Assembly: GCA_002778465.1 (NCBI GenBank)
Contig: PFBV01000003.1
Span: forward strand, 375,053 to 412,978
Origin: Candidatus Magasanikbacteria bacterium CG10_big_fil_rev_8_21_14_0_10_36_32
Lineage (GTDB): Bacteria > Patescibacteriota > Patescibacteriia > Magasanikbacterales > GWA2-37-8
Length of the DNA: 37,926 nucleotides
Reading direction: 5' to 3'
Part shown: positions 17,286 to 19,533 of the stretch, piece after piece
Position numbering within the stretch: the stretch's first letter is position 1
Layout: the number at the start of each line of letters is the position of its first letter
Notes under the pieces: model-generated
Told to the model about the DNA's origin: nothing
The model's database searches: none
The model's input: the letters and a program-made list of their open reading frames with translations, nothing else
Made by a program: the position numbers and the translations under genes

Positions 17286-18284
17286 ATGGAAATTAAAAAA
17301 ATAGATAATAAAGAGACTTGGAATAATTGGTTGAAAAAAATTTCTCAGCCGTCTTTTACCCAATCATTTGAGTGGGGTGATATTTTGTTGCAAGAAGGAA
17401 AAGAAGTGGAAAGATTAGTTTTGGTGGATAATGGAGAAATTGTTGCGGCAGTTTTGATTGAGTATCATAATTTGCCGTTTGGTTGGCGTTATGCGTTTTG
17501 TCCGAAAGGGCCGGTGGTAAGTGAAAAATTAAAAACTGAAATTTTAAAAGTTTTTCAGTCTGCAGGTAGTTATTTAAAAGATAAAAAATGTTTATTTTTT
17601 AGATTTGAATTAGATAATGATTTTAAATTTACTGTTTCTGATTTATTGCTTAAAAAAGCGCCAGATATTAATCCGCGAGCGACAGTGATTTTAAATTTAA
17701 AACAGAGCGACGAAGAATTGCTTGCAAAAATGCATTCCAAAACCCGCTATAATATTAATTTAGCGGAGCGTAAAAATTTGCGGGTGAGCGAAGAAAAAAA
17801 TTTTTTAGTTTTTATAAAATTAATGTCAGACACGGCTAAACGCGACGATTTCCGTTTGCATCAAATGGAACATTATAAAAAAGTGTTAGCTTCGCCGCTG
17901 ACAAAACAAATTACAATTTATAATGACGAACAGGCGATTGCGGTGGGTGTGTTTGTCGGTTTTGGCAATACCTTTACATATTTGTACGGCGCTTCTGACT
18001 ATGATAGTCGTCAGTTGATGGCGCCATATTTAATACAGTGGCAGGGAATAAAAATAGGACGGGAATCCGGGTATGATTTTTATGATTTTTTTGGTATCGC
18101 TCCAACCAAAGAAGCAGATGGAGAATTTAAATATGACAAAAAACATCAGTATGCCGGTGTAACTAGATTTAAGTTAGGATTTGGCGGTTTACCAAAAGAA
18201 AGCGCCGGAACAATAGATATGATTTTATTGCCAACGAAATACAAAATATATAAATTAATGAGAAAAATCAGAAGAATATTTTAA
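17286..18284 (+). CDS. FemAB/FemX-family peptidyltransferase
   Basis: A 332-residue tandem-GNAT-fold protein of the FemAB family, which adds amino acids from aminoacyl-tRNA to the lipid II stem peptide. Typical segments: FTQSFEWGDILLQEG near the start, LLAKMHSKTRYNINLAERK in the middle, RDDFRLHQMEHYKKV, and YLYGASDYDSRQLMAPYLIQ, then DFFGIAP and KYDKKHQYAGVTRFKLGFGG at the end. It probably builds the peptidoglycan interpeptide bridge. It lies 3 nt before a tRNA-Arg gene and may share its transcript. Confidence 0.9.
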   Translation: MEIKKIDNKETWNNWLKKISQPSFTQSFEWGDILLQEGKEVERLVLVDNGEIVAAVLIEYHNLPFGWRYAFCPKGPVVSEKLKTEILKVFQSAGSYLKDKKCLFFRFELDNDFKFTVSDLLLKKAPDINPRATVILNLKQSDEELLAKMHSKTRYNINLAERKNLRVSEEKNFLVFIKLMSDTAKRDDFRLHQMEHYKKVLASPLTKQITIYNDEQAIAVGVFVGFGNTFTYLYGASDYDSRQLMAPYLIQWQGIKIGRESGYDFYDFFGIAPTKEADGEFKYDKKHQYAGVTRFKLGFGGLPKESAGTIDMILLPTKYKIYKLMRKIRRIF

Positions 18285-18287
18285 ACC

Positions 18288-18359
18288 GTCCTCGTAGTCC
18301 AATGGATAGAATATCTCCCTCCGAAGGAGAAGATGCGCGTTCGATTCGCGCCGAGGGCA
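18288..18359 (+). tRNA. tRNA-Arg (anticodon CCG)
   Basis: Acceptor GTCCTCG/CGAGGGC, D-arm AGTCCAATGGATAGAAT, anticodon loop CTCCGAA, T-arm GCGCGTTCGATTCGCGC. No CCA encoded. Starts 3 nt after the femX-like stop. Confidence 0.93.
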
Positions 18360-18367
18360 CAGAAGTC

Positions 18368-18396
18368 TTGACTTTTTCTCTGAAATATAGTACAAT
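18368..18396 (+). promoter_or_regulatory. Promoter of the tRNA-Glu/GIY-YIG locus
   Basis: TTGACT (18368-18373), 17-bp spacer, TACAAT (18391-18396). It lies 20 nt before the first base of the tRNA-Glu fragment, the spacing expected for the native tRNA-Glu promoter. The intact tRNA is now 332 nt away. Confidence 0.8.
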
Positions 18397-18415
18397 GCGT
18401 CAGTAAAGTTTTAAT

Positions 18416-18482
18416 GGCCCCATCGTCTAATGGTTAGTGCCGATGTAAAATCGGCATCCCGACCTTGCGTCGGGAGACACCA
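18416..18482 (+). pseudogene. tRNA-Glu 5' fragment, interrupted by double hairpin
   Basis: The first 22 nt (18416-18437) are identical to the 5' end of the intact tRNA-Glu at 18728. After the 38-bp double hairpin, GACACCA (18476-18482) continues the match exactly where it broke off. The fragment therefore covers 29 nt of tRNA-Glu (acceptor 5' strand, D-arm, start of the anticodon stem), split cleanly by an insertion in the D-arm. It cannot fold as a tRNA. Confidence 0.85.
18438..18475 (+). repeat. 38-bp double-hairpin element, copy 2 (inside tRNA-Glu fragment)
   Basis: First hairpin TGCCGAT/ATCGGCA with loop GTAAA; second TCCCGAC/GTCGGGA with loop CTTGC. The second half is identical to the copy at 257-294. 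In the first half, G2-C18 here is C2-G18 there, and an A-T pair here is a G-T wobble there, which keeps the stem intact. Removing the 38 bp restores the tRNA sequence without gain or loss, so the insertion made no target duplication that remains visible. Confidence 0.85.
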
Positions 18483-18490
18483 TATTAAAT

Positions 18491-18742
18491 ATGTCTTTTA
18501 CTTACATCTTAAAAACTTCTTGTGACGATTATTATATAGGAAGTACAGATGATATAACACAAAGATTAAAGGCACACAATGCTGGAAAAGTAAAAAGCAC
18601 CAAAAGTAAATTGCCGATCAGATTAGTTTTTAAGGAATACTATCATACAAAATCAGAAGCCCAAAAGAAAGAATATAAAATAAAAAATTGGAAAAGTAAA
18701 AAAATGATAGAAAAATTAATAGAACTTGGCCCCATCGTCTAA
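18491..18742 (+). CDS. Stand-alone GIY-YIG endonuclease
   Basis: An 83-residue single-domain GIY-YIG nuclease of the UvrC-N/YhbQ type. The signature is present as TYILKTSCDDYYIGSTDD (residues 3-20), followed by RLKAHNAGKVKSTKSKLP, KEYYHTKSEAQKKEYKIK and KKMIEKLIEL. The catalytic Tyr, Arg, His and Glu positions all look present. The C-terminal residues GPIV and the stop codon TAA are read from the first bases of the intact tRNA-Glu gene, so the gene overlaps the tRNA by 15 nt. No good ribosome site is visible. It lies between a duplicated tRNA-Glu 5' end and the intact tRNA, suggesting homing-type insertion. Confidence 0.88.
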   Translation: MSFTYILKTSCDDYYIGSTDDITQRLKAHNAGKVKSTKSKLPIRLVFKEYYHTKSEAQKKEYKIKNWKSKKMIEKLIELGPIV

Positions 18743-18799
18743 TGGTTAGGACACCACGCTTTCAATGTGGTAATACGGGTTCGATTCCCGTTGGGGCTA
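18728..18799 (+). tRNA. tRNA-Glu (anticodon TTC)
   Basis: Acceptor GGCCCCA/TGGGGCT (G-U first pair), D-arm GTCTAATGGTTAGGAC, anticodon loop CTTTCAA on a CCACG/TGTGG stem, T-arm CGGGTTCGATTCCCG. No CCA encoded. Its natural promoter is separated from it by the GIY-YIG unit. Confidence 0.95.
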
Positions 18800-18851
18800 C
18801 ACAATTGGACAGGTTCAAGTGACCGAGAGGGTTCTTGAACGTTTGGTCATC

Positions 18852-18878
18852 AAAAAGACGGCTTCTGGCCGTCTTTTT
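18852..18878. terminator. Bidirectional terminator between tRNA-Glu and CBASS operon
   Basis: AAAAAGACGGC pairs with GCCGTCTTTTT around TTCTG. It can stop the tRNA-Glu transcript (plus) and the CBASS operon (minus). A second stem, GTTCAAG/CTTGAAC, lies at 18814-18840. Confidence 0.88.
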
Positions 18879-18909
18879 GATTAAATTTATGTTACCATTT
18901 TACTCTAGT

Positions 18910-19533
18910 TTAGAAGTGTCCTATTCTGTCTTTGTTTTCAAGAGCACACACTATTTTACCGTAAGTTCCTCTCTCTCGCGAATCATTATAATATGATCCT
19001 TCCAGCCTTTGAATATCATCTTTAAGCAAATTAAGCATTGCACAACCTTCATGCATTCTCATGTCAATATCCGTAGACATTGTGCGAGGAGTATTTCTGT
19101 ATATATAATTTAACGTCCACCCACCGTGTTCATTTTTTATCAGATTAGCCAGCGCACTGTATGAAGATGATCTCTCTGTAAATAGACTCAAGGAAACATT
19201 CAACAGTGTCTGTCTTATTTCGATCACTGTCGGATATTTTTGTCCACCATTAACGCTTGATTCGATTTCGCCACGATAGCGACCATTTATGTTGGGTACC
19301 CGGTGAATAAATTTAAATGGCCAGATTCGCCAAAGTGCAGACTCGTAGATAAAAAAGAGAAATACTATGATAACAATAGTAGTGGGTGCTTGAATTACGC
19401 CCCACACTGCCAGTTGTTTTATTGCGGACCAAGATGCTTGTTCAAGACCTGATTGCAGCAGGTTGGCCAACCAGACTGCAGGTATCAAGGCGACGAGTAC
19501 AAAGTAAATATAAAATTTAAAATTAATTTTCAT
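18910..19533 (-). CDS. Cap15-like CBASS effector (2TM + beta-barrel)
   Basis: A 207-residue protein with two N-terminal membrane helices (about 6-26 and 42-65) followed by a beta-strand-rich domain starting at NINGRYRGEIESS. The strand pattern VIEIRQTLLNVSLSLFTERS, SSYSALANL, LNYIYRNTPR, MHEGCAMLNL and RLEGSYYNDSRERGTYG matches the SMODS-associated 2TM beta-strand-rich effector (Cap15). Cap15 proteins bind the cyclic nucleotide made by a partner CD-NTase and disrupt the inner membrane (family knowledge). The gene starts 3 nt after the CD-NTase stop, so the two are translationally coupled. Confidence 0.85.
   Translation of the reverse strand: MKINFKFYIYFVLVALIPAVWLANLLQSGLEQASWSAIKQLAVWGVIQAPTTIVIIVFLFFIYESALWRIWPFKFIHRVPNINGRYRGEIESSVNGGQKYPTVIEIRQTLLNVSLSLFTERSSSYSALANLIKNEHGGWTLNYIYRNTPRTMSTDIDMRMHEGCAMLNLLKDDIQRLEGSYYNDSRERGTYGKIVCALENKDRIGHF

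Follow-up and report, generated by a model that had tools for sequence, protein, structure and literature searches.

SegB of T-even phages is a free-standing GIY-YIG homing endonuclease encoded in a tRNA region; the 5' end of the tRNA shares microhomology with the 3' end of segB, and breaks have been mapped within tRNA genes (PMC13096335). In fungal mitochondria, mORFs accompanied by a replacement gene end have been described in atp6 of Allomyces and in atp6, atp9, cox2 and nad3 of Glomus (PMC3630166). In CPR bacteria, the rRNA genes contain GIY-YIG and LAGLIDADG insertions, of which the GIY-YIG ones are sparse, at sites located at the top or base of stem-loops; GIY-YIG was judged to lie outside spread by homing, and tRNA is unmentioned in the text of that paper (PMC11270868).

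Here, we analyzed a stretch of 37,926 nucleotides (hereafter the window) from Candidatus Magasanikbacteria bacterium CG10_big_fil_rev_8_21_14_0_10_36_32, in which a small GIY-YIG gene adjoins a tRNA-Glu gene, together with its relatives in other genomes. As in the case of SegB, a GIY-YIG nuclease is found next to tRNA genes of many isotypes; however, SegB is encoded by phages and acts within their tRNA array, whereas the present protein, a bare domain of 83 aa, is encoded on bacterial chromosomes by a gene that has a tRNA remnant containing a hairpin on its upstream side and a rebuilt tRNA on its downstream side. The likeness to mORFs is an endonuclease gene within an essential gene plus a duplicate, sometimes foreign, part that restores that gene. 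The mORFs concern 3' ends of mitochondrial protein genes and are mostly LAGLIDADG, whereas the present elements concern mainly tRNA 5' ends in bacteria, belong to one small GIY-YIG clade and are associated with hairpins. The CPR rRNA insertions share with them the bacterial group, the GIY-YIG proteins and the stem-loop positions, but tRNA genes are here a main target of the clade, with both filled and empty alleles. The element works like SegB and the mORFs, yet belongs to neither group by the features tested. A full-text literature search, covering few subscription papers or preprints, gave no description of tRNA-targeting GIY-YIG genes in CPR bacteria, and the elements appear to be a widespread and apparently undescribed kind of selfish element.

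The unit lies on the forward strand of the window downstream of tRNA-Arg(CCG) (18288-18360, ARAGORN). The native tRNA-Glu promoter (TTGACT-17-TACAAT, 18368-18396, consensus scan) is now ahead of the entire unit and is followed by nucleotides 1-22 of tRNA-Glu (18416-18437), which are identical (22/22) to the re-supplied 5' part of the intact tRNA-Glu (18728-18749). At the D-loop/D-stem boundary this remnant gives way to two perfect-stem hairpins occupying 38 nt (18438-18475), namely hairpin 1 (TGCCGATGTAAAATCGGCA, 18438-18456) and hairpin 2 (TCCCGACCTTGCGTCGGGA, 18457-18475), and then resumes with nucleotides 23-29 (18476-18482, 7/7 identical). An AT-rich spacer of 8 nt (18483-18490) leads to the ATG of the GIY-YIG nuclease gene (18491-18742, 83 aa), whose terminal codons, GGC CCC ATC GTC TAA, are nucleotides 1-15 of the intact tRNA-Glu(UUC) (anticodon ttc, 18728-18800, ARAGORN). 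The insert amounts to ∼312 bp with one GIY-YIG gene, and the duplicated end is the 5' end of the tRNA. Folding of the leader was better than that of 200 out of 200 shuffled sequences (z = -3.2). The first-pass annotation of this DNA had correctly recognized the GIY-YIG gene and the intact tRNA-Glu behind it. It had also reported a 29-nt copy of the tRNA-Glu 5' end, which does exist from 18416 and is identical to the intact tRNA at all 29 positions, but which is not continuous, being split by the double hairpin into 22 and 7 nt. An interruption of this kind recurs across the class and seems central. The nuclease gene, described there as nested in the tRNA-Glu locus, does lie between remnant and tRNA, but not as an intron. 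A second double hairpin of the remnant type, with no strand assigned, was observed at 257-294 between the 23S and 5S rRNA genes; no GIY-YIG gene accompanies it, and the sequence of hairpin 2 recurs there unchanged (276-294).

Evidence for insertion comes from alleles with and without the gene at one site, which were found within genera for tRNA-Phe, tRNA-Trp and tRNA-Glu, and for tRNA-Arg between one genome (G004) and its family. The empty tRNA-Phe allele (G021 and G017) consists of tRNA-Ala, ∼11 nt, tRNA-Phe, ∼11 nt and tRNA-Pro; in a filled member of the same genus (G023), tRNA-Ala is followed by nucleotides 1-20 of tRNA-Phe, a hairpin, nucleotides 21-30, the GIY-YIG gene, an intact tRNA-Phe and tRNA-Pro, which is ∼306 bp more. 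At tRNA-Trp the situation is reversed, G021 being filled and its congeners G023 and G017 empty, and one and the same terminator upstream of the site precedes the remnant in the filled allele and the tRNA in the empty ones. Among the tRNA-Glu loci, G019 is filled and its congener G012 is empty, and 4 of the 23 genomes of the family with a complete tRNA-Glu(UUC) are filled (the window's genome, G019, G003 and G018). For the window locus itself the empty-site comparison was made at the family level via promoter synteny: empty relatives carry a TTGACTTTTT/TATAAT pair directly before tRNA-Glu, whereas in the window, G016, G019, G003 and G018 it is the remnant that the promoter precedes. In G016 (L342, 1390-1500) a tRNA-Glu remnant is interrupted after nucleotide 22, as in the window, by two hairpins that differ from those of the window, and a GIY-YIG gene is absent, which is likely a scar after gene loss; the tRNA-Glu site of G015 is probably also such a scar. 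In G004, nucleotides 1-36 of the host tRNA-Arg abut the stop codon of a femAB-like gene, and behind them lie hairpins, the nuclease gene and a different complete tRNA-Arg, whereas in a dozen relatives tRNA-Arg follows the femAB-like gene directly or shortly after it. Comparison of these alleles shows, at the level of sequence, that the element inserted inside a tRNA gene, the same place in related genomes being occupied by an intact tRNA without the element. It agrees with the first-pass suggestion that the element is mobile and homing-like, has the tRNA gene as its target, leaves this gene rebuilt and lies behind the native promoter.

The survey covered 57 related genomes and then 287 genomes across the phylum, and the small GIY-YIG genes fell into three clades on the tree, with the tRNA-linked genes forming their own clade. 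With a cut-off of at least 70 bits to the clade profile, 221 genes were assigned to it, and 75 lower-scoring genes were mostly members of the sister clades, one YhbQ/UPF0213-like and one ('NPxWxDLS') flanked by TGTCATTCC palindromes. An intact tRNA on the same strand started between -46 and +59 nt from the stop codon of 88 of the 221 clade genes, which answers the first-pass proposal to look for other tRNA genes abutted by small GIY-YIG genes. In 6 cases out of 221 the intact tRNA preceded the gene, and antisense tRNAs beside clade genes numbered 0 out of 221. The downstream tRNAs carried 30 anticodons and covered all 20 amino acids; tRNA-Glu is the target at the window locus, as had been claimed, but it is not the sole target of the clade. 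None of the 75 lower-scoring genes had a tRNA start within 60 nt, and we rejected the idea that the link to tRNA is general to all GIY-YIG genes, as the sister clades are not at tRNAs. Inverted repeats flanked 48 of 211 genes in the clade and 25 of 75 in the sister clades, and 52 clade genes were without a recognized target. The clearly assigned tRNA-linked members among the named contigs belonged to Patescibacteria (CPR), and relatives in Desulfobacterota, Brocadia and Bacteroidota were mostly located between inverted repeats or in undefined contexts. A phage origin was considered and rejected; the matches were one weak phage record, obtained with a relative of the window protein as the query, and five viral contigs. 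The stop codon within the tRNA, which had been pointed out, is real in the window (TAA, 18740-18742), but it is incidental and was rejected as the key feature since it was found at only 28 of the 88 loci, mostly as a conserved TAG or TAA near tRNA nucleotides 8-16.

The upstream plan was usually the same: tRNA nucleotides 1 to X, one or more hairpins, nucleotides X+1 to Y, a short AT spacer and the ATG, where X falls within the D-, anticodon- or T-loop or at its margin and Y lies a little farther on, in or past that arm's 3' strand. When nucleotides 1-30 of the tRNA were compared with the 160 nt upstream, the longest exact match had a median of 13 at the 88 loci vs 6 at loci of other isotypes, and exact matches of at least 13 nt were present at 49 of 88 loci vs 0 of 322 controls, which exceeds chance. 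For the 31 loci matched exactly on both sides, the insert had a median length of 41 nt and was 73% paired, and the split point was within the loop in 23 of them and at the loop edge or in the adjoining stem in the others; within one arm, the exact position of the insertion differs between loci. Folding was unusually good immediately upstream of the ATG, 76% of the 90-nt stretches there having a z below -2 vs 13% for DNA farther upstream, and the distance from remnant to ATG had a class median of 11 nt. Covariation in the D-loop hairpin was weak (two pairs), conservation being chiefly at the sequence level. At a few loci (L046, L055, L073, L103 and L110) the order was reversed, that is, the intact tRNA, the gene and then a hairpin-bearing copy. 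In the leaders of L185, L288 and L221, hairpins were observed within the loops of other hairpins, as if palindromes target hairpin tips.

The second tRNA copy was identical to the remnant at most loci, including the window, and lineage-specific bases were common to both (A7 of tRNA-Phe, and tRNA-Glu in G016). Such identity would fit transfer between close relatives, gene conversion or a tRNA of the recipient that was itself duplicated. The restored tRNA was clearly unlike the remnant at L130 (the tRNA-Arg locus of G004) and at L103, where the 3' remnant differs from the intact tRNA-Cys, and because of this clear difference both intact tRNAs are taken to have come from elsewhere. At L176 the insertion is in the 5' end of a Rossmann-type gene and is followed by the full, synonymously diverged gene; the assignment 'Rossmann type' for L176 and L200 was based on an MKxLxTGGAGFIGS motif read in the sequence. 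With regard to the arrangement known from mORFs, an endonuclease gene plus a restoring duplicate of the host gene was present in the window and at the 88 loci, and the restored part was foreign at L130 and L103, diverged at L176 and identical in the window. At L176 and L200 (1430-1830), the GIY-YIG gene was seen between palindrome halves at the GGAGF/IG junction of that gene, with the intact diverged copy after it.

The window protein is a GIY-YIG domain protein (PF01541, E = 4.7e-16) with the catalytic residues of the superfamily. Y5, Y15, G17, R25, H29 and E61 were invariant across 42 relatives, and dN/dS values of 0.09-0.13 in related pairs indicated purifying selection; thus, the nuclease has been maintained. 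It is a bare catalytic domain, its 83 aa being almost wholly GIY-YIG, and the domain scan found no DNA-binding region beyond the catalytic domain. When the clade profile was compared with solved structures, UPF0213 proteins (1zg2 and 1ywl) ranked best, followed by the structure-specific SLX1 and then by I-TevI. Although UPF0213/SLX1-type proteins are the nearest solved sequences, the YhbQ/UPF0213-like genes in these genomes group apart from the present ones, in a clade unlinked to tRNAs. The tRNA isotype was clustered on the protein tree (51 changes vs 64.9 in shuffled data; 0 of 200 shuffles as low); it also switches often, and many isotypes are scattered over the tree. No significant clustering was observed for the arm used (D, anticodon or T; 31 rows), and the arm as a clade-specific trait is unsupported for this reason.

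Based on these data, the element is very probably a mobile one that targets tRNA genes, whatever its route, and we favor, with moderate confidence, homing with rescue by a free-standing single-gene mobile element specialized on tRNA genes. Mobility and target are shown by the genome comparison, as is the layout, in which the native promoter is followed, on the same strand, by the remnant (the original 5' part), one or two hairpins, the remainder of the arm, the GIY-YIG gene and a complete tRNA of the same kind. For the cleavage, the repair route and the role of the hairpin, we infer the following course. The protein may cut or nick an unoccupied tRNA gene in or near an arm, and repair would then copy the donor element in, with the matching tRNA pieces on either side serving as homology arms. 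Because the right arm carries the full 5' part of the tRNA or the whole tRNA, the essential gene would work again after insertion, and careless deletion of the unit would harm the cell, whose sole intact copy of this tRNA sits behind the nuclease gene. The remnant is probably inactivated by the hairpin, which may also be what the nuclease recognizes or what blocks it. Transcription of the tRNA most likely starts at the native promoter and runs across the nuclease gene, with RNase P then releasing the tRNA, and where the stop codon sits in the tRNA, such 5' processing would strip the mRNA of its stop. In the window, the co-transcription of nuclease and tRNA-Glu with release by RNase P is plausible, because the assembly yielded a single tRNA-Glu(UUC), that at 18728-18800 (the second tRNA-Glu reads CUC), and because the consensus scan of 18250-18950 revealed no other sense promoter-like site, including between the gene start and the tRNA. 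The promoter at 18368-18396, which the first-pass annotation had taken as native, is weak by consensus alone, but its counterpart stands directly before tRNA-Glu in related genomes. The outcomes by which that annotation expected its reading to fail, such as a separate promoter just before the tRNA, did not appear, promoters being judged by consensus scan only.

It should be noted that several observations count against homing. Remnant and intact tRNA are identical at most loci, so the rescue copy is seldom visibly foreign or recoded, which gives the enzyme no evident reason to spare it; the protein is just the GIY-YIG domain, whereas known homing endonucleases also have a DNA-binding part; and the variable insertion points, the unclustered arm, the spread of isotypes over the tree, the 48 of 211 genes in inverted repeats and the 52 targetless genes point in the same direction. 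Some room, though clearly less than an even chance, is left for hairpin-directed transposition, in which the nuclease would recognize folded DNA (tRNA arms, rRNA helices and palindromes) and the element would enter hairpin tips as folded single-stranded DNA, so that tRNA genes are hit as conserved clusters of hairpins and the second tRNA is a long target duplication. Because of the match to SLX1, which outranks I-TevI after UPF0213, the insertion points in tRNA loops or arms and a copy inside a 16S rRNA gene (L093) with its flanking 17-nt inverted repeat, recognition of folded DNA is a serious rival to recognition of sequence. The hairpins within hairpins, the inverted repeats around clade and sister-clade genes and the lineage-specific bases shared by remnant and intact copies also agree with it. 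However, target duplication does not account for the complete but foreign tRNAs of L130 and L103, the clustering of isotypes on the tree fits sequence-dependent targeting, and no terminal structure is common to all members.

The remaining explanations appear much weaker. It is improbable that the gene is useful to the host, with the nuclease or structured leader regulating or processing the downstream tRNA and the remnant acting as a regulatory leader: the strict same-strand order, shared promoter and purifying selection would suit such a role, but the distribution is patchy even within a genus, several copies per genome occur at unrelated isotypes, and the G016 site is a GIY-less scar. Passive hitch-hiking, by which a common small gene would happen to fall between the copies of frequent tandem tRNA duplications, could account for the tandem copies at L083 and L088; it is already contradicted by the strand and order counts in the clade, with no antisense neighbors, and by the lack of any link in the 75 sister-clade genes, and the hairpin in the remnant is absent from the intact copy, while empty sites have one tRNA and no gene, which makes this explanation very improbable. 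Group I introns and integrase-type islands are both known to use tRNA genes, but either origin is scarcely credible here and is contradicted by the sequence. No Rfam intron family matched 18200-18950 and the tRNA is complete and uninterrupted; the ∼312-bp insert contains a single GIY-YIG gene and no integrase gene, and the duplication restores the 5' end rather than forming an att repeat at the 3' end of the tRNA.

If homing with rescue is true, a ∼300-bp selfish gene has repeatedly invaded the tRNA genes of a very large bacterial group and persists in their streamlined genomes because it rebuilds whichever essential gene it hits; engineered home-and-rescue drives would then have a counterpart in nature. 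Such elements might also have led to the replacement of tRNA genes and to the presence of foreign tRNAs in CPR bacteria. They would explain the many orphan 80-residue GIY-YIG genes in CPR genomes and would provide a nuclease of very small size whose target, a tRNA arm or a hairpin, can be tested. A broader view, which we put forward tentatively and consider rather doubtful as a whole, is that of a phylum-wide natural 'home-and-rescue' class, in which a minimal GIY-YIG nuclease recognizing folded DNA (tRNA arms, rRNA helix tips and palindromes) would move, together with a hairpin, into essential RNA genes that serve all amino acids and would carry or rebuild a rescue copy, the cell then depending on the element's tRNA.

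Several additional observations were made in the course of the analysis. The genome of the window contains a second unit (L001, 1438-1840; C2:49533-49935) with a remnant of nucleotides 1-29 of tRNA-Ser(GCT), a D-loop hairpin (CCTGCCTGCCGGTAGGCAGG), a GIY-YIG gene and an intact tRNA-Ser. Another clade member in this genome (L002, C2:17179) lies away from tRNAs, with the inverted repeats ACCCCGTTAGAGATA and TATCTCTAACGGGGT on either side, and CACCCTGTTAAAT repeats akin to these flank relatives in several other phyla. In G050, the GIY-YIG gene and 17-nt inverted repeat of L093 lie within a variable hairpin of the 16S rRNA gene. Tandem GIY-YIG units were observed at tRNA-Asn in G016 (L083), a partly N-masked locus in which no intact tRNA-Asn was detected. 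Members of the third clade (for example, L028, L038 and L080) encode proteins of ∼96 aa with NPxWxDLS and are located between inverted TGTCATTCCCG..CGGGAATCC palindromes. Finally, with regard to REP/RAYT elements, in which a Y1 (HUH) transposase goes with dispersed palindromes, the palindrome CCCGAC..GTCGGG was present at 10 sites in the genome of the window vs 0 in the control, but the nuclease linked to it is GIY-YIG.
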